From: Haloplanus salinarum
GTDB taxonomy: Archaea; Halobacteriota; Halobacteria; Halobacteriales; Haloferacaceae
DNA: 64,000 nt
NCBI RefSeq assembly: GCF_024498175.1
Contig: NZ_CP101823.1
Coordinates: forward strand, 682,001 to 746,000
Reading direction: 5' to 3'
A model generated the notes under the pieces. The model did not search any database, was not told the DNA's origin, and was given only the letters and a program-made list of their open reading frames with translations. Shown one piece after another: positions 28,522 through 35,709 of this stretch. The number at the start of each line of letters is the position of its first letter. Positions within the stretch are counted from its first letter, which is position 1. Position numbers and translations under genes: made by a program.

Positions 28522-29281
28522 GGACTACGACCTCGACGCCGGCCCGGACCCGGCGGCGGTCGCCGCCGCGACGCCGGAGCCGGACCCCGACGCCCTCGAC
28601 GACCCGGTTCACGCCGTCGGGATCGGTCCCGGCAACCCGGACTACCTCACCCGCCGGGGCGCGCGGGCGATCCGCGAGGCGGACGTCGTCGTCGGCTTCG
28701 AGACGGTCGTCGACTTCGTCGCCGACGGGACCGAGGCCGATCTGCTCACCTGTGGCTACGCCGACGAGGCGGCGACGCTGTCGGTGTTCGCGGACCGCGT
28801 GGCCGCCGGCGACCACGGGACGGCCGTCCTGATGGGCGATCCGAACCACTCGGGCTACCAGTTCCTCGGCAAGGTCGAACGGGCCGTCGATGCGCCCGTG
28901 ACCGTGGTGCCGGGAATCTCGTCGCTCCAGGTCGCCGCGAGTCGGGCACGGACGCCGATGGAGGACGCCGCGTTCGTCACCCTCCACAAGAGCGGCGACC
29001 TCGACCCTGATCTCGACCGCCTCGTCGACGCCGTCGGCGACCGACACCTGCTCGTGCTCCCGCGGCCGTTCGACTGGATGCCCGGCGACGTCGCCGACCT
29101 GCTCGTCGAGTCGGGCGCCGATCCCGCGCTCGACGCGCTCGTGTTCGAACACCTGACACACCCGGAGGAGCGGGTGACACGGACGACACTCGGCGACCTC
29201 CGCGGATCGGCGGGCGGGGGCGACCGCGAGTCGACACCGTACTCCGACCTCTCCGTGCTCGTCGTGCGGGCCGACCCATGA
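28514..29281 (+). CDS. cbiE: Cobalt-precorrin-7 C5-methyltransferase CbiE
   Basis: This methylates C5 (the separate CbiT handles C15). The 255-residue protein has an acidic Asp/Pro leader (about 1-30), then VHAVGIGPGNPDYLTRRGARAI, VVVGFETVVDF, VLMGDPNHSGYQFL and VVPGISSLQVAASRARTPMED, followed by LLVLPRPFDWMP, typical of CbiE/CobL-N. The start codon overlaps cbiC by 8 bases, and the end overlaps the cbiA start (4 bases). Confidence 0.88.
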   Translation: MSEDYDLDAGPDPAAVAAATPEPDPDALDDPVHAVGIGPGNPDYLTRRGARAIREADVVVGFETVVDFVADGTEADLLTCGYADEAATLSVFADRVAAGDHGTAVLMGDPNHSGYQFLGKVERAVDAPVTVVPGISSLQVAASRARTPMEDAAFVTLHKSGDLDPDLDRLVDAVGDRHLLVLPRPFDWMPGDVADLLVESGADPALDALVFEHLTHPEERVTRTTLGDLRGSAGGGDRESTPYSDLSVLVVRADP

Positions 29282-30585
29282 AAGGAGTCGTCCTCGGCGG
29301 CACGAAGTCGGGCGTCGGCAAGACCGTCGCGACCCTCGCGGTCCTCCGTGCCCTGGCGGCCGACGGCTATGACGTCCAGCCGGCGAAGGCCGGCCCCGAC
29401 TTCATCGATCCGAGCCACCACGAGGCCGTGACGGACACCCCCTCCCGGACCCTCGACCTGTGGCTCGAAGGTCGCGAGGGTCTGCGCCGTAACTACGCGC
29501 GCGGCGACGGGGACGTCTGCGTCGTCGAGGGGGTGATGGGCCTCTACGACGGCGACCGGTCGAGCACGGCGATGGTCGCCGAGGCTCTCGATTTGCCGGT
29601 GGTGCTCGTCGTCGACGCGAAAGCGGGCATGGAGAGCGTCGCCGCGACGGCCCACGGCTTCCGCGAGTACGCCACCCACGCGGGCCGGGACGTCGACGTC
29701 GTCGGCGTGATCGCCCAGCGTGCCCACGGCGGCCGCCACGAGTCGGGGATCCGGGAGGCCCTGCCCGACGACTTGGCCTACCTCGGCCGGATCCCGCCCC
29801 GCGAGGACCTGGAGATTCCGGAGCGACACCTCGGGCTCCACATGGGCGCGGAGGCGCCACTGGACGGTGACGCCCTCGACGCCGCCGCGGCGGGCATCCG
29901 GACGGATCGGCTGCTGGACCTGGCGCGGACGCCGCCGCGGACCGCTCCCGCCCCGGTCGGCGGTCCGACCGGGGCACGGATCGCCGTCGCCCGCGACGCC
30001 GCCTTCGGCTTCGTCTACCCGGCGACGGTCGAGCGCCTGCGCGACCGGGCGACGGTCGTCACCTTTTCGCCGCTCGCGGGCGACGACCTGCCCGCCTGCG
30101 ACGGGGTCTACCTGCCGGGGGGGTACCCGGAGCTCCACGCCGCCGACCTCGAAGCGAGTCCGACGACGGACGCCCTCGCGGCGGCGGCGGCCGAGGGCAC
30201 CGCCGTCCTCGGGGAGTGCGGGGGGCTCATGGCCCTCGCCGAGTCGCTGACCACGACCGAGGGGGAGCGCCACGCCATGGCCGGCGTCCTGCCCGCCGAC
30301 GTCCGGATGCACGACCGGTATCAGGCGCTCGATCACGTCGAGTTGCGGGCACGGCGGGACACCCTGACCGCCGCGGCCGGCGACCGGCGGCGCGGCCACG
30401 AGTTCCACTACTCCAGCGCGACCGTCGACGACGACGCCCGCTTCGCCTTCGACGTGGTCCGGGGATCCGGCATCGACGACGAGCGGGACGGCCTGGTCGA
30501 ACACCGGACGCTCGGCACCTACTGTCACCTCCACGCCGAGAGCGGGGCTATCGACGCGTTCGTGGCACGGGCGGTCGAGGACTGA
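29278..30585 (+). CDS. cbiA: Cobyrinate a,c-diamide synthase CbiA
   Basis: This ATP- and glutamine-dependent enzyme amidates the a and c side chains. The 435-residue protein has the N-terminal dethiobiotin-synthetase-like P-loop VVLGGTKSGVGKTVA, KAGPDFIDPSHHEAV and VVEGVMGLYDG. The C-terminal class-I-like glutaminase has YLPGGYPELHA and the nucleophile Cys in VLGECGGLMAL, ending TYCHLHAESGAIDAF. It is the last gene of cobN-cbiC-cbiE-cbiA and is convergent with the LOV kinase at a distance of zero bases. Confidence 0.93.
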   Translation: MKGVVLGGTKSGVGKTVATLAVLRALAADGYDVQPAKAGPDFIDPSHHEAVTDTPSRTLDLWLEGREGLRRNYARGDGDVCVVEGVMGLYDGDRSSTAMVAEALDLPVVLVVDAKAGMESVAATAHGFREYATHAGRDVDVVGVIAQRAHGGRHESGIREALPDDLAYLGRIPPREDLEIPERHLGLHMGAEAPLDGDALDAAAAGIRTDRLLDLARTPPRTAPAPVGGPTGARIAVARDAAFGFVYPATVERLRDRATVVTFSPLAGDDLPACDGVYLPGGYPELHAADLEASPTTDALAAAAAEGTAVLGECGGLMALAESLTTTEGERHAMAGVLPADVRMHDRYQALDHVELRARRDTLTAAAGDRRRGHEFHYSSATVDDDARFAFDVVRGSGIDDERDGLVEHRTLGTYCHLHAESGAIDAFVARAVED

Positions 30586-32382
30586 TCAGGTGGCGTCCAC
30601 GCCCCGCACGTCGAAGCGGGCGCCGCCGTCGGCGCTCTCGGTCACGTCGACCGTCCACCCGTGGACGTCGACGAACTCGCGGACGATTTCGAGGCCGAAA
30701 CCCGTCCCACCCTCGTCCGTGGAGTAGCCCGCCTCGAAGATCCGATCCCGTTCGGATTCGGGGATTCCGGGGCCGTCGTCGGCGACGTAGAAGCCGCCGT
30801 CCGTCTCGCCCACGGTGACGACGACGTCGTCGCCGCCGTGTTCCACCGCGTTGCCGAGGAGGTTCGTCAGGAGTCGCCGGAACCGGCGCGACTCGGCGTT
30901 GACGGTCCGCTCGGTCTCGACCCGGAGCGTCGCGTCCCGCGTCTCGATGTCGGACCAGCACCGCGTAACCATCGTCGGCAGCGACAGGGCCTCCCGATCC
31001 ATGTCGCCGTCGGTGTCCCGGGCCAGCGTGAGGAGGTCGTCGATCAGCGCCTCGATCCGGGCGTGGGCGTCGGCGACCGCGTCGAGGTGTTCGTGGCCGG
31101 CCTCGGTCGCACACTTGGCGAGTTCGAGTTCCCCCGCCGCCACCGTCAGCGGGTTCCGGAGGTCGTGGGAGAGCACGCCAGCGAAGCGTTCGAGGCGCTC
31201 GTTCTGCCGTTCGAGACGGCGACGGTACCGGCGGTACTCGGTCACGTCCTCCTGGAAGCCGACCCAGCGGGCCACCTCGCCGTCGTCGTCCCGGAGCGGG
31301 GCGATGCTCACCCGGTTCCAGAACGGTTCGCCATCCCTCCGGTAGTTCCGGAGGGTGACCGTCGCGGGTTCGCCGGCCTCGATGGCCTCGTTCAGCGTCT
31401 CGACGGGCTCCGAGTCGGTGTCCGGCCCCTGGAGGAACCGGCAGTTGCGGTCGAGGGCCGCCTCGCGGTCGTAGCCCGTCATCTCGACGAACGCGTCGTT
31501 GACGTAGATCATCGGGTTGTCCGCCCGCGAGGGGTCGGTCATCGTGATGCCCGTCGGCGCCTCGTCCATGGCGCGGGTCCTGTAGTCGAGTTCGCGGCGT
31601 CGCCGGCGCTCCGCCGAGACGTCGCGGAGGATGCCGACGCTCCCCTCGAAACACTCGCCGTCGTAGGGCAGGGCGGCCATGTGGTCGCGACACCGGATCG
31701 GGTCGCCCTCCTTCGGGACGATGTCGACCTCGAACTGACTGCTGTCGGGGCCGTCCGCCGAGAGGATCCCCCCGAGTTCCGATTCGGCCCGCTCGACGGC
31801 CGCATCGTCCTTGATGAGCGAGGGTAGACTGCCGATGATCGTCTCCCGATCGTAGCCAGTCAGCTCCGCGAAGGACTCGTTGACGAACTCGAACCGTCCG
31901 TCCGCGTCGACGACGTAGACGGGGTAGCCGAGGGCCTCGATCACCGTCGAGTAGCGGTCGGCGACGGCCTGCGTCCGGCGGTCGTCGAGGACCTGTTCGA
32001 CGCGGTTGGCGAGGCGGCGCTGCTGGTCGGGTCCACCCTTCTGGAAGTAGCCGGTGACGCCGGCGTTGAGCGCCCGGCTGGCGATCTCCTCGCTCCCCTT
32101 GCCCGTATAGAGGATAAAGGGCGTCGTGATCCCGTGCTCGCGGGCGGCCTCGAAGAAGGCCAGCCCGTCCATCGCGGGCATGTCGTAATCGCTGATGATA
32201 CAGTCGACGTCGGCGCCGGCGTCGGCGTCGTCGGCGACCCGCGAGAGCGCCGCCTCGGGCGACGTTTCGGTCAGCGTCGTGACCTCCCAGCCGAGCTCTC
32301 GATCGAGGAACGACGACGTGAGATCCAGCACCGCCGGATCGTCGTCGACGTGTAACAGCCGAAACGTGTCGGTCGCGCTCAT
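30586..32382 (-). CDS. REC-PAS-LOV sensor histidine kinase (putative blue-light sensor)
   Basis: This soluble kinase has about 598 residues. REC is at 8-130 with phosphoacceptor Asp65 (IISDYDMP). A PAS domain is at about 142-258. A second PAS, at about 268-385, has the LOV signature DRNCRFLQG with Cys314, NYRRDGEPFWNRVSIAPL and the glutamine of VGFQEDVTE, all matching flavin-binding LOV domains. HisKA contains LSHDLRNPL, and HATPase has NLLGNAVEHG, VADDGPGIP and GTGFGLEIV. The start is ATG 32382 (MSATDTFRLL). Light input and the output partner are inferred. Confidence 0.88.
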   Translation of the reverse strand: MSATDTFRLLHVDDDPAVLDLTSSFLDRELGWEVTTLTETSPEAALSRVADDADAGADVDCIISDYDMPAMDGLAFFEAAREHGITTPFILYTGKGSEEIASRALNAGVTGYFQKGGPDQQRRLANRVEQVLDDRRTQAVADRYSTVIEALGYPVYVVDADGRFEFVNESFAELTGYDRETIIGSLPSLIKDDAAVERAESELGGILSADGPDSSQFEVDIVPKEGDPIRCRDHMAALPYDGECFEGSVGILRDVSAERRRRRELDYRTRAMDEAPTGITMTDPSRADNPMIYVNDAFVEMTGYDREAALDRNCRFLQGPDTDSEPVETLNEAIEAGEPATVTLRNYRRDGEPFWNRVSIAPLRDDDGEVARWVGFQEDVTEYRRYRRRLERQNERLERFAGVLSHDLRNPLTVAAGELELAKCATEAGHEHLDAVADAHARIEALIDDLLTLARDTDGDMDREALSLPTMVTRCWSDIETRDATLRVETERTVNAESRRFRRLLTNLLGNAVEHGGDDVVVTVGETDGGFYVADDGPGIPESERDRIFEAGYSTDEGGTGFGLEIVREFVDVHGWTVDVTESADGGARFDVRGVDAT

Positions 32383-32523
32383 GCGGTCGCGGTGAATCGC
32401 AGTCGGTTCGCCATCGTTCGGGTATCCTATGGGCGCCGGAATCAAATACGCATCCCCGTGATTACCAGCCGTGAAAACGGGAGCGACAAAGGACTAAGTG
32501 CGCGCCTCGGCAGTGTCGACCGG

Positions 32524-34038
32524 ATGCCACCGAACCGACGGATCTCCCTTGCACTGCTGTCCGGGATCGGAGCGATACTGACCGGCGTGTTGCTGTTCGA
32601 CGTCTACGAGGACTGGCAGGTGCAGGGCAACAGCCTCGCGTCGACGGCCGTCGAGAACGCCCTCCCGTTCGTGCTCGTCCTGGGGTTGTACTACTCGATC
32701 CATCGGCTCCGCCGCGGGTCGTACGACGACGCGTTCGTGGGGACCGTGACGAAGTGGACGGTGGCGGGCGTCCTGATGATGGGGGGGTTGACGGCCTGGG
32801 TCGTCGGCATCCAGGTCGTGCAAAACGAGGTAAAACCCGTCATCATCGTGTTACAGACGGCGGTGGTCGGCACCGTGGCGGGGCTGATCGTCGGGCAACG
32901 GACCGCCAGCGTCCGGCGGGAGCGGGATCGGACCCGACGCGAGAAGGAGCGCTTCCAAGCCCTGTTCGAGAACGATCCTTCGGGGATCGTCTCGCTCCGT
33001 CGACACGGCGACCGCCTCGTCGCCGAGTCGGCGAACCCGAGCTTCGAGTCCCTGTTCGGCTCGGTCGAGGGCCAGGGGCTGGGGACGGCGCTCCCGCAAC
33101 TGGATGACGGGACCATCCGGGCGTTCCGGACGCATACGGACGACCACGAGCGGTTCACGGCGGAGACGACGCTCCGGACCGAGGATGGGACGAAACACTT
33201 CGTGGTCGAGCTGGTGCCGTTCGGCGTCGAACAGGTGGCGGAGTCGCGGAGTTACGCCATCTTCCAGGACGTGACCGAGATCAGGGAGACGGAGGCGGAA
33301 CTCGAACGGACCGTCCAGCAGCTCGAACGCTCCAACGAACAGCTCCAGCAGTTCGCCTACGTCGCCTCCCACGACCTCCAGGAGCCGCTGCGGATGGTCT
33401 CCAGCTACGTCGACCTGCTCGACTCGGAGTACGGGAGCGAACTCGACGAGGAGGCCGACGAGTACATCGAGTTCGCGGTCGACGGTGCCCAGCGGATGCA
33501 GGCCATGATCGACGACCTCCTGCAGTACTCCCGGGTCCACACGAAAGGCAAGAAGTTCGAGGAGACCGATCCCGAGGCTGCCCTCGAACGGGTGTTGCGG
33601 GACCTCGAACTCCTGATCGAGGAACGGGACGCGACCGTCACGTACGGCGACCTGCCGTCTGTCGTCGCCGACGCGAACCAGCTCGGCCAGCTCTTCCAGA
33701 ACCTGATCGACAACGCCATCGAACACGGCGGCGACGGCGACGACCCGCCGACGGTCCACGTCGCGGGCGAGGAACGCGAGGATTCGGTCGTGTTCTCCGT
33801 CGCCGACGACGGTCCGGGCATCCCGGCGGACCAGCAGGACCGCGTGTTCGAACTCTTCGAGCAGTCCAGCCGGGACGACGAGGGGACGGGCATCGGCCTC
33901 GCCATCTGTCGACGGATCGTCGACCGCCACGGGGGGGATATCTGGATCGAATCCGAGGAAGGTGAGGGAACGACGTTCCACGTCGAGTTCCCCACGCGCC
34001 CGCCCCAACAGTCAACACACAGCGGTCGAATGGAGTGA
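32524..34038 (+). CDS. Membrane sensor histidine kinase with PAS domain
   Basis: This is a 504-residue protein. Four hydrophobic segments fill about 8-130 (LALLSGIGAILTGVLLF, ALPFVLVLGLYYSI, WTVAGVLMMGGLTAWVVGI, VIIVLQTAVVGTVAGLIVG). A PAS-like region (about 145-260), a coiled coil, HisKA with FAYVASHDLQEPLRMV, and HATPase with NLIDNAIEHG, VADDGPGIP and GTGIGLAICRRIVDRHGG follow. The start is ATG 32524 (MPPNRRISL). The next gene is an Rcp1-type response regulator 2 bases downstream, which is probably its target. Confidence 0.9.
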   Translation: MPPNRRISLALLSGIGAILTGVLLFDVYEDWQVQGNSLASTAVENALPFVLVLGLYYSIHRLRRGSYDDAFVGTVTKWTVAGVLMMGGLTAWVVGIQVVQNEVKPVIIVLQTAVVGTVAGLIVGQRTASVRRERDRTRREKERFQALFENDPSGIVSLRRHGDRLVAESANPSFESLFGSVEGQGLGTALPQLDDGTIRAFRTHTDDHERFTAETTLRTEDGTKHFVVELVPFGVEQVAESRSYAIFQDVTEIRETEAELERTVQQLERSNEQLQQFAYVASHDLQEPLRMVSSYVDLLDSEYGSELDEEADEYIEFAVDGAQRMQAMIDDLLQYSRVHTKGKKFEETDPEAALERVLRDLELLIEERDATVTYGDLPSVVADANQLGQLFQNLIDNAIEHGGDGDDPPTVHVAGEEREDSVVFSVADDGPGIPADQQDRVFELFEQSSRDDEGTGIGLAICRRIVDRHGGDIWIESEEGEGTTFHVEFPTRPPQQSTHSGRME

Positions 34039-34040
34039 CC

Positions 34041-34478
34041 ATGTCGGAACGCGAGCCCGTGGAAATCCTCCTGGCGGAGGACAACCCCGGCGACGTCAAG
34101 CTGACGCGGAAGGCCCTGGAGAAGGGTCGACTGGCGAACAATCTCCACGTCGTCACCGACGGCGTCGAGACGATGCAGTTCCTCCGGGGCGAGGAGCCGT
34201 ACACCGACACGCCACGGCCGGATCTCGTCTTGCTCGATTTGAACATGCCCCGGAAGGACGGGAGAGAGGTGCTCGCGGAGGTGAAAAAGAGCGAGGACCT
34301 CCGGCGCATTCCGGTGGTCGTCCTGACGAGTTCGGAGGCCGAGGAGGACGTGATCAAATCCTACGAACACCACGCGAACGCCTACCTGACCAAACCCGTC
34401 GACTTCGACGGCTTTATCGACGTCGTCGGCACCCTCGAGGAGTTCTGGCTGCAGGTGGTCAAACTTCCGCCCGAGTGA
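34041..34478 (+). CDS. Rcp1-type single-domain response regulator
   Basis: This 145-residue receiver domain has the acidic pocket LLAEDNPGDVKL, phosphoacceptor in VLLDLNMPRKDG, VVLTSSEAEED and the Lys of YLTKPVDFDGF. This longer receiver form (Rcp1/CheY-like) usually partners with phytochrome-like kinases. The start is ATG 34041. It sits between two kinases; phosphotransfer from the upstream membrane kinase is the simplest reading. There is no output domain. Confidence 0.9.
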   Translation: MSEREPVEILLAEDNPGDVKLTRKALEKGRLANNLHVVTDGVETMQFLRGEEPYTDTPRPDLVLLDLNMPRKDGREVLAEVKKSEDLRRIPVVVLTSSEAEEDVIKSYEHHANAYLTKPVDFDGFIDVVGTLEEFWLQVVKLPPE

Positions 34479-34479
34479 G

Positions 34480-35709
34480 ATGTCGAGCGAGCCGGCGAAC
34501 GGGTTGGACGTCCTCCTCGTCGAGGACAACGAGGGCGACGCACGGCTGATCCGCCACCACCTCCGGGTCGACACCAGCAGCGTCTTCGACCCGCCGAACC
34601 TGACACACGTCGACAGCCTCCCCGCGGCCGTCGATCGGCTGGCCGAGTCGGCGTTCGACCTCGTCTTGCTGGATCTCGGCCTCGCCGACAGCCAAGGCAT
34701 CGAGACGCTAGAACGACTCAAAGACCGTATCGAGGCCGAGGAACTCCAGTCGGTGCCGGTCGTGGTGTTGACCGGCCTCTCCGACGACGAGACGGCGCTC
34801 CGGGCCATCGAGGCCGGGGCGCAGGATTACCTCCTCAAGGACAACCTCGACGGCGCCCTGCTCGAACGGGCCATCCGCTACGCGATGGAGCGCCACCGAC
34901 AGGAGCGCCTGCTGAAACGACAGAACGAGCGCCTCGAACGCTTCGCCAGCATCGTCTCCCACGACCTCCGGAACCCGCTGAACGTCGCGAAGGGACGGCT
35001 CTCCCACGAGATGGGACTGCGCGAGGGGACCGACGTCTCGACCGAACACGTCGAGGAGGCGGTCGACGCGCTCGATCGGATGGAGGAACTCGTCGACGAC
35101 CTGCTGGCGCTCGCCCGCGACGGCCGGTCGGTCGACGAACTGGAGACGGTGGCCCTCGACACGTCCGTTCGATCGGCCTGGGAGAACGTCCCGGCGCCGG
35201 CGAGCCAACTTCGCGTGGACGTCTCGGGGACCGTCGAGGCCGACCCCGCGCGACTAGCGCAGCTGTTCGAGAACCTGTTTCGGAACAGCGTCGAACACGG
35301 TTCGACGGGCAACCGGACGGAGTCCGGCGACAGCGTCGAACACGGTTCCACGAGCAACCGGACGGAGTCCGGCGACAGCGTCGAACACGGTTCCACGAGC
35401 AACCGGACGGAGTCCGGCGACAGCGTGGAACACGGTTCGACGGACACCCGATCGGAGGCCGACGGGGTGACGATCACGGTCGGGCGAGTCGGGGACGGTC
35501 TCTACGTCGCCGACGACGGTCCCGGGATCCACGAGGACGACCACGACGACGTCTTCGAGGCGGGCTACTCGACGAGTGTGGACGGGACCGGCTTCGGCCT
35601 CGATATCGTCCGCGAGATCGCCGAGGCCCACGGGTGGACGGTCGACGTGACCGAGAGCGCCGACGGCGGCGCCCGCTTCGAGATCACCGGCATGGGACTC
35701 GACGGGTAG
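34480..35709 (+). CDS. REC-histidine kinase hybrid with repeat insertion in the ATPase domain
   Basis: This is a 409-residue protein. REC is at 6-130 (LLVEDNEGDARLI, phosphoacceptor in VLLDLGLADS, VVLTGLSDDE, LKDNLDGALLERAI). A HisKA-like region is at about 150-215 with SIVSHDLRNPLNVAKG. The HATPase domain has NLFRNSVEHG, then a 45-residue insertion of three 15-residue repeats, then VADDGPGIHEDD and GTGFGLDIV. It starts one base after the response regulator. The insertion lies just after the N-box, so it may alter the ATP lid region. Confidence 0.9.
   Translation: MSSEPANGLDVLLVEDNEGDARLIRHHLRVDTSSVFDPPNLTHVDSLPAAVDRLAESAFDLVLLDLGLADSQGIETLERLKDRIEAEELQSVPVVVLTGLSDDETALRAIEAGAQDYLLKDNLDGALLERAIRYAMERHRQERLLKRQNERLERFASIVSHDLRNPLNVAKGRLSHEMGLREGTDVSTEHVEEAVDALDRMEELVDDLLALARDGRSVDELETVALDTSVRSAWENVPAPASQLRVDVSGTVEADPARLAQLFENLFRNSVEHGSTGNRTESGDSVEHGSTSNRTESGDSVEHGSTSNRTESGDSVEHGSTDTRSEADGVTITVGRVGDGLYVADDGPGIHEDDHDDVFEAGYSTSVDGTGFGLDIVREIAEAHGWTVDVTESADGGARFEITGMGLDG
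35290..35463 (+). repeat. 45-bp tandem repeat inside the kinase ATPase domain
   Basis: Three full 45-base units (from 35290, 35335 and 35380) and a partial fourth unit (from 35425) encode VEHGSTSNRTESGDS. Units two and three are identical in DNA. The unit duplicates the end of the N-box (VEHG), so the array probably grew from that motif. Confidence 0.9.

Follow-up and report, generated by a model that had tools for sequence, protein, structure and literature searches.

Does the histidine kinase encoded on the minus strand of the window (the whole 64,000-nucleotide stretch of Haloplanus salinarum DNA analysed here) receive its signal from blue light, and is it coupled to the genes that surround it? 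A two-component kinase with blue-light input is the best reading, with flavin binding and the light response as predictions; it is the best inference because a complete flavin-LOV signature precedes an intact histidine kinase and the N-terminal receiver is intact as well. In particular, the sequence and a structural model make it probable that the protein is a soluble histidine kinase regulated by blue light via its flavin LOV domain.

Gene and domain organization

According to Pfam and the translation, the 598-amino-acid protein has the order REC-PAS-LOV-HisKA-HATPase (Table 1), and its start, MSA, is common to relatives in the orthologue comparison. The Response_reg match scores 60.2 bits against a cut-off of 30.2, and both HisKA and HATPase_c exceed their cut-offs. 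In an alignment of 18 orthologue rows, the acidic pocket (D13-D15), the phospho-accepting D65, T93, and K115 of the receiver are invariant, as are the H, N, G1, and G2 boxes of the kinase (H406, N511, D535-G537, G561-G563). The receiver that the earlier note had placed in front of the sensor domains is thereby found intact with its catalytic residues.

Table 1. Features of the LOV kinase gene and its neighbours (positions in the window).
Feature	Position	Strand	Basis
cbiA, cobyrinic acid a,c-diamide synthase; convergent neighbour outside the kinase system	29278..30585	+	NF010471, 786.6 bits, cut-off 693
LOV histidine kinase gene, 598 aa + stop	30586..32382	-	open frame, translation; orthologues
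HATPase_c kinase domain, residues 498-592	30607..30891	-	E 5.4e-21
HisKA, residues 397-457, phospho-acceptor His406 (HDLRNP)	31012..31194	-	E 4.2e-12; His406 invariant
28-residue helical linker, Gln377 to His406	31168..31251	-	model helix 381-425; spacing
Trp373 codon, aromatic position four before Gln377	31264..31266	-	invariant in aligned orthologues
LOV domain, residues about 265-390	31213..31590	-	YF1 sequence match, Foldseek, model
Cys314 codon, predicted flavin-adduct cysteine	31441..31443	-	NCRFLQ motif; conservation
First PAS domain, residues about 143-250	31633..31956	-	PAS_9/PAS_8; without NCRFLQ
N-terminal receiver domain, residues 10-117; phospho-acceptor Asp65, Lys115	32032..32355	-	Response_reg, E 2.7e-16
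4TM-PAS histidine kinase, divergent neighbour	32524..34038	+	HisKA_4TM, HisKA, HATPase_c
Single-domain response regulator, in the 4TM kinase operon	34041..34478	+	Response_reg, E 3.2e-19
REC-HisKA-HATPase protein, last in the 4TM kinase operon	34480..35709	+	Pfam

Predicted flavin site and structural model

The second PAS domain, matched over residues 277-382, contains RNCRFLQG (residues 312-319, Cys314 within), NYRRDG at 346, FWN at 354-356, and FQED at 376, and all four flavin-bonding residues are present (Gln318, Asn346, Asn356, and Gln377). The complete signature claimed in the earlier note could thus be located from Cys314 through N346/RRDG and FWN to the Gln of the last strand, and the blue-light input to two-component signalling that it proposed holds as the best inference from signature, kinase, and receiver. 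Among the 18 aligned rows, Q318, N356, and Q377 are invariant, and N346 is kept in at least 90%. At the first Gly of GXNCRFLQ, which belongs to the consensus but is not taken as a defining residue, the protein has Asp311; Asp is also found at this position in Haloplanus ruber, Glu in one relative (L059), and Gly in most orthologues. The motif is not a chance match, since the genome has 93 PAS_9 matches and NCRFLQ in only 6 PAS domains, and a reversed-pattern control gave no match in any of the 148 genomes of the family. Two NCBIfam models fall below threshold, so that the protein is filed under neither: BluLightHisKinLov (NF052306; 142.7 bits over residues 268-516, threshold 450) and YtvA_fam (NF052652; 163 bits, threshold 250).

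Among solved structures, sequence comparison ranks the LOV kinases YF1 (4gcz, E 3.1e-41) and SB2F1 first, followed by many LOV domains, and LOV-kinase chimaeras occupy Foldseek ranks 1-8. An AlphaFold2 model built from 18 orthologue rows has a pLDDT of mostly 90-94 across the LOV domain, which adopts the LOV (PAS) fold as judged by Foldseek and fits MrLOVe (9vf7) with a TMt of 0.94 and an rmsd of 1.0 over 135 columns. The model contains a continuous helix, residues 381-425, between LOV and HisKA; the pTM of the whole chain is only 0.38, and the relative placement of the domains is not to be trusted.

Conservation and distribution of the LOV kinase

The window protein is 85% identical to its orthologue in Haloplanus ruber and 58-66% identical to those in Halorubrum. 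Peptide patterns that left out the Cys motif were used to find relatives in named genomes, and the adduct Cys is kept in all 28 close relatives so obtained (1 Haloplanus ruber, 26 Halorubrum, and 1 Natronomonas MAG). It is also kept in three of four further genus members (L105-L108; L104, a likely duplicate of the H. ruber locus L045, was left out of the count), which gives 32 of 33 orthologues with the window protein included. One relative (L062) reads NCLFLQ and has His for N346, another (L107) reads DCLFLQ, and in a Halorubrum copy (L069) the kinase frame is lost directly downstream of the LOV domain, possibly through a sequencing error.

Within the genus, an orthologue occurs in 6 of 12 genomes at E values up to 1e-150, and the other six are without the gene; the group is present in most sampled Halorubrum genomes. 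A LOV tree of 113 columns places the six Haloplanus rows and the 36 Halorubrum rows each in a supported group; the two together may form one clade. The L108 row in this tree is the decayed copy described below.

The receiver, first PAS domain, and kinase are conserved about as well as the LOV domain. Moreover, three relatives (L073, L074, and L075) have a receiver, a PAS domain like the first one here, a kinase, and another PAS domain, without LOV. The module can therefore work without light, and light input in these relatives would, on comparison of the sequences, have been gained or lost by domain exchange. Both observations are in keeping with a LOV domain that serves as a structural PAS relay and has no role in light sensing, the kinase responding instead to the first PAS domain or to the receiver. 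Such a relay is nevertheless very unlikely, given that the flavin signature is complete and conserved and that the flavin residues vanish together in the one copy devoid of a kinase.

That copy is found in the Haloplanus genome G106 (L108 / L112), where the orthologue stops behind its LOV domain and has lost the kinase; the adjoining REC-kinase gene is the principal remaining match to the kinase region. Its LOV domain carries the substitutions C314L, Q318R, N346T, N356T, and Q377H. Compared with the copy in G046, identity is 90% in the receiver, 91% in the first PAS domain, and 70% in the LOV domain, with dN/dS values of 0.17, 0.14, and 0.59, respectively. The excess of LOV change over the receiver and first PAS domain is significant against three control pairs (Fisher p 0.0008, 0.026, and 0.0035) but not against a fourth, L106-L107 (p 0.11), and the intact pair L105-L106 also shows a LOV dN/dS of 0.59. 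The sequence of the G106 copy, a single event, fits the idea that flavin residues are held only while a kinase is attached, and hints at it weakly.

A tryptophan at the predicted flavin site

The residue four before Gln377 is Trp in the window protein and Phe in YtvA/YF1. Trp373 is kept in all 28 named orthologues and in L105-L108. In the alignment, the SB2F1 chimaera has Tyr at this position, so Phe is not universal outside archaea. From its spacing, the position is taken to be position 116 of Valle et al., a flavin-contacting site that is Trp or Tyr in most Lake Diamante LOVs and whose role these authors leave open (PMC12202551). The 148 family genomes contain about 248 LOVs with the NCRFLQG pattern; 38 of them, in 37 genomes, have the Trp, and this type occurs in 27 of the 30 genomes of genus g14, taken to be Halorubrum. 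When 30 of the 38 Trp loci were fetched, 25 proved to be full-length orthologues (the window's own included) and five did not (L118, L119, L120, L123, and L126); Trp thus marks this orthologous group without being exclusive to it. In the LOV tree, at least three changes of the Trp label are required by the starred branches.

Trp373 might quench the flavin or steer it towards photoreduction. An alternative to a canonical photoreceptor is a flavin domain that serves mainly as a redox or light-plus-redox sensor via the semiquinone, with Trp373 as electron donor and the Cys adduct as a minor branch. The invariance of a Trp in place of Phe beside the flavin is in line with this. The site of the CrLOV1-F41Y variant is presumably a different position from that of Trp373. 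In this variant, an aromatic residue introduced near the flavin favours photoreduction despite the Cys (PMC5645311), and in Cys-less VVD and YF1 the semiquinone is enough for signalling (PMC4682037). A redox-only sensor would not, however, need the cysteine that nearly all orthologues retain, and ALovD-1, which has extra Tyr residues near its flavin, still forms the adduct with a yield of 0.49 (PMC12202551). A redox or light-plus-redox sensor of this kind is unlikely. It is a speculative notion, and a doubtful one, that the Trp373 orthologues form a distinct photochemical class in which Trp electron transfer and the Cys adduct let light and redox be read together, with a coiled-coil phase of 1 modulo 7 unlike that of YF1.

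Proposed signalling and the sign of the light response

For the preferred reading, a blue-light-regulated kinase, we infer flavin binding, adduct formation, and kinase switching from the domains, residues, conservation, and modelled LOV fold. FMN held by Gln318, Asn346, Asn356, and Gln377 would absorb near 450 nm, and light would lead to a covalent flavin adduct with Cys314. A change at Gln377 and in the beta-sheet would then travel along the continuous helix 381-425, which presumably forms a coiled coil in the dimer, to the HisKA helix and alter autophosphorylation at His406. Phosphate would be handed to a response regulator and might also move, in either direction, between the kinase and its own receiver at Asp65. 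It is possible that another kinase feeds this receiver.

The spacing from Gln377 to the His is 29 in all 40 measured rows, most of them orthologues; these 40 are the rows, out of 61 distinct LOV rows, in which the His of the HDL..P box was placed by pattern. A manual count of seven further rows gave 22 in four and 29 or 36 in three, each of them 1 modulo 7; of the other 14, 13 continue into another sensor domain beyond LOV, and one is L069. The measured haloarchaeal LOV kinases thus have spacings of 22, 29, or 36, a heptad series that is always 1 modulo 7. YF1 and SB2F1 have a spacing of 38, so that the linker here is 9 shorter than in the blue-light-repressed YF1. Heptad periodicity of LOV kinases and a 7n / 7n+1 rule for the sign of the light effect have been published (PMC6798134). 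That rule is not transferable to a spacing 9 off that of YF1; as the linker phase differs, the sign of the light response is not predictable from it. Natural bacterial LOV kinases are typically light-activated, and on this analogy we lean slightly towards a kinase that is activated by light.

Genomic context

The gene order is common to the window and H. ruber over 17 kb. The cluster of 4TM kinase, response regulator, and REC-kinase lies divergent to the LOV kinase in all six genus carriers (H. ruber L045 represents G024 in this comparison), and in G074 and G062 the cluster is present with no LOV kinase at that place. An intergenic block within 32383-32523 is conserved in eight genus genomes, even where the LOV kinase is missing. 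A divergent promoter shared with the 4TM kinase was considered and rejected since G074 and G062 also have the block without the LOV kinase; for the same reason, the block probably serves the 4TM kinase operon as its promoter. The REC-kinase gene at the end of that operon has several near-identical copies of SVEHGST..TESGD in its ATPase region.

On the other side, cbiA directly adjoins the LOV kinase gene, and cbiE-like, cbiC, and cobN genes lie beyond it in both the window and H. ruber, an arrangement that had led the earlier note to link the kinase to B12. Control of the neighbouring cobalamin genes by light through this kinase is, however, extremely improbable. The genes are convergent, cbiA ending on the opposite strand one base before the kinase gene, and there is no shared promoter. 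The adjacency also fails outside part of the genus: cbiA was found in the flanks of three of the six genus carriers, convergent in the window and H. ruber but sharing the strand of the LOV kinase, at a distance of about 2 kb, in L110; it was not found in the flanks of L109, L111, and L112. Among 31 relatives' loci (L045-L075, several cut by contig ends), it was found only at that of H. ruber and not at the other 30. A B12 coupling was rejected on the grounds of orientation and missing synteny.

In H. sodomense, a Y-family polymerase gene (IMS; L058, 6366-7826, minus strand) is divergent to the LOV kinase, and 22 of the other 30 loci in L045-L075 contain a match to it. It was rejected as a conserved partner because the Haloplanus gene has other neighbours, and was treated as genus synteny; a link of light and DNA repair via this polymerase is possible and may be plain synteny. 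Across genera, no neighbour common to the LOV kinase orthologues and no cognate regulator was found.

Relation to known LOV proteins

LOV kinases of archaea that also carry receiver and PAS domains are already known, and novelty is low. In a 2014 survey, Halobacteria and Methanomicrobia account for 167 archaeal LOV proteins; those without HTH are kinases whose extra units are only RR, GAF, and PAS, the same architecture as that of the window protein (PMC4844311). Receiver, PAS, LOV, and kinase architectures are likewise described by Valle et al., whose 2025 study of an isolated LOV domain from Halonotius terms it, as ALovD-1, the first canonical archaeal LOV (PMC12202551). ALovD-1 binds FMN via Q50, N78, N88, and Q109, has C46 as its adduct cysteine in the text (numbered 57 in a figure legend), and undergoes its photocycle at salt concentrations of up to 3 M (PMC12202551). 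Counted from the Cys, its Gln/Asn/Asn/Gln set sits at +4, +32, +42, and +63, exactly as in the window protein, and ALovD-1 and the group A Lake Diamante LOVs are, like the window protein, halobacterial LOVs in multi-PAS histidine kinases. Group A shares with it the FWN followed by Arg, the R-R-D-G turn, and, according to Valle et al., a Trp or Tyr for Phe at the pocket position; of the group markers, the window protein has FWNR and RRDG (an R-x-D-G turn), and its loop reads EAGE rather than the acidic DXEE. ALovD-1 differs in its species, in having measured photochemistry, and in a Tyr in the LOV motif where the window protein has Phe; the latter has Asp311 for Gly.

YF1, a fusion of the YtvA LOV domain to the FixL kinase, is the best match in both sequence and structure and likewise has the order LOV-helix-HisKA-HATPase. 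Unlike the window protein, it is engineered, is without a receiver, and has Phe at the Trp373 position and a spacing of 38 rather than 29. Among halobacterial LOV-like flavin domains, BAT-LOV* of Halorubrum, with Pro for Cys, was studied in 2015, and Cys-less BAT LOVs are known (PMC4682037). As described there, it is part of a DNA-binding activator, whereas the window protein has the Cys and a kinase.

A literature search of open-licence PMC papers found no study of this protein group. Its less ordinary features are the invariant Trp373 and a heptad LOV-to-His spacing in a phase unlike that of YF1. They raise two questions, namely the role of a tryptophan at the flavin wall and whether, in a natural kinase, it is coiled-coil phase that decides between activation and repression by light. 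Full-length archaeal LOV kinases have been little tested, and natural controls are at hand in the kinase-less copy with its erased flavin site and in genomes with the same neighbours and no LOV kinase.

Other light-related genes of the genome

The genome encodes six LOV domains with the Cys; the five besides this one are in other kinases with varied PAS, GAF, and REC units. One further LOV-like domain has His for Cys. Four rhodopsins and two photolyase-type proteins over the cut-off are also present. A Bat-like activator gene (BAT, HTH_10; L165 3713-7726, plus strand, at about 59212-63225 of contig C1) with NHRFLQG in its LOV-like domain sits between two rhodopsin genes, and NHRFLQG is also found in G083, G111, G024, and G046. 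Elsewhere (L164 623-5608, plus strand), a chemotaxis transducer gene (MCPsignal, HAMP) is followed in an operon-like arrangement, with a 4-base overlap, by a rhodopsin gene, and a REC-PAS-GAF-histidine kinase lies 40 bases past the latter. This rhodopsin may be of the sensory type and have two partners, one for taxis and one a kinase.
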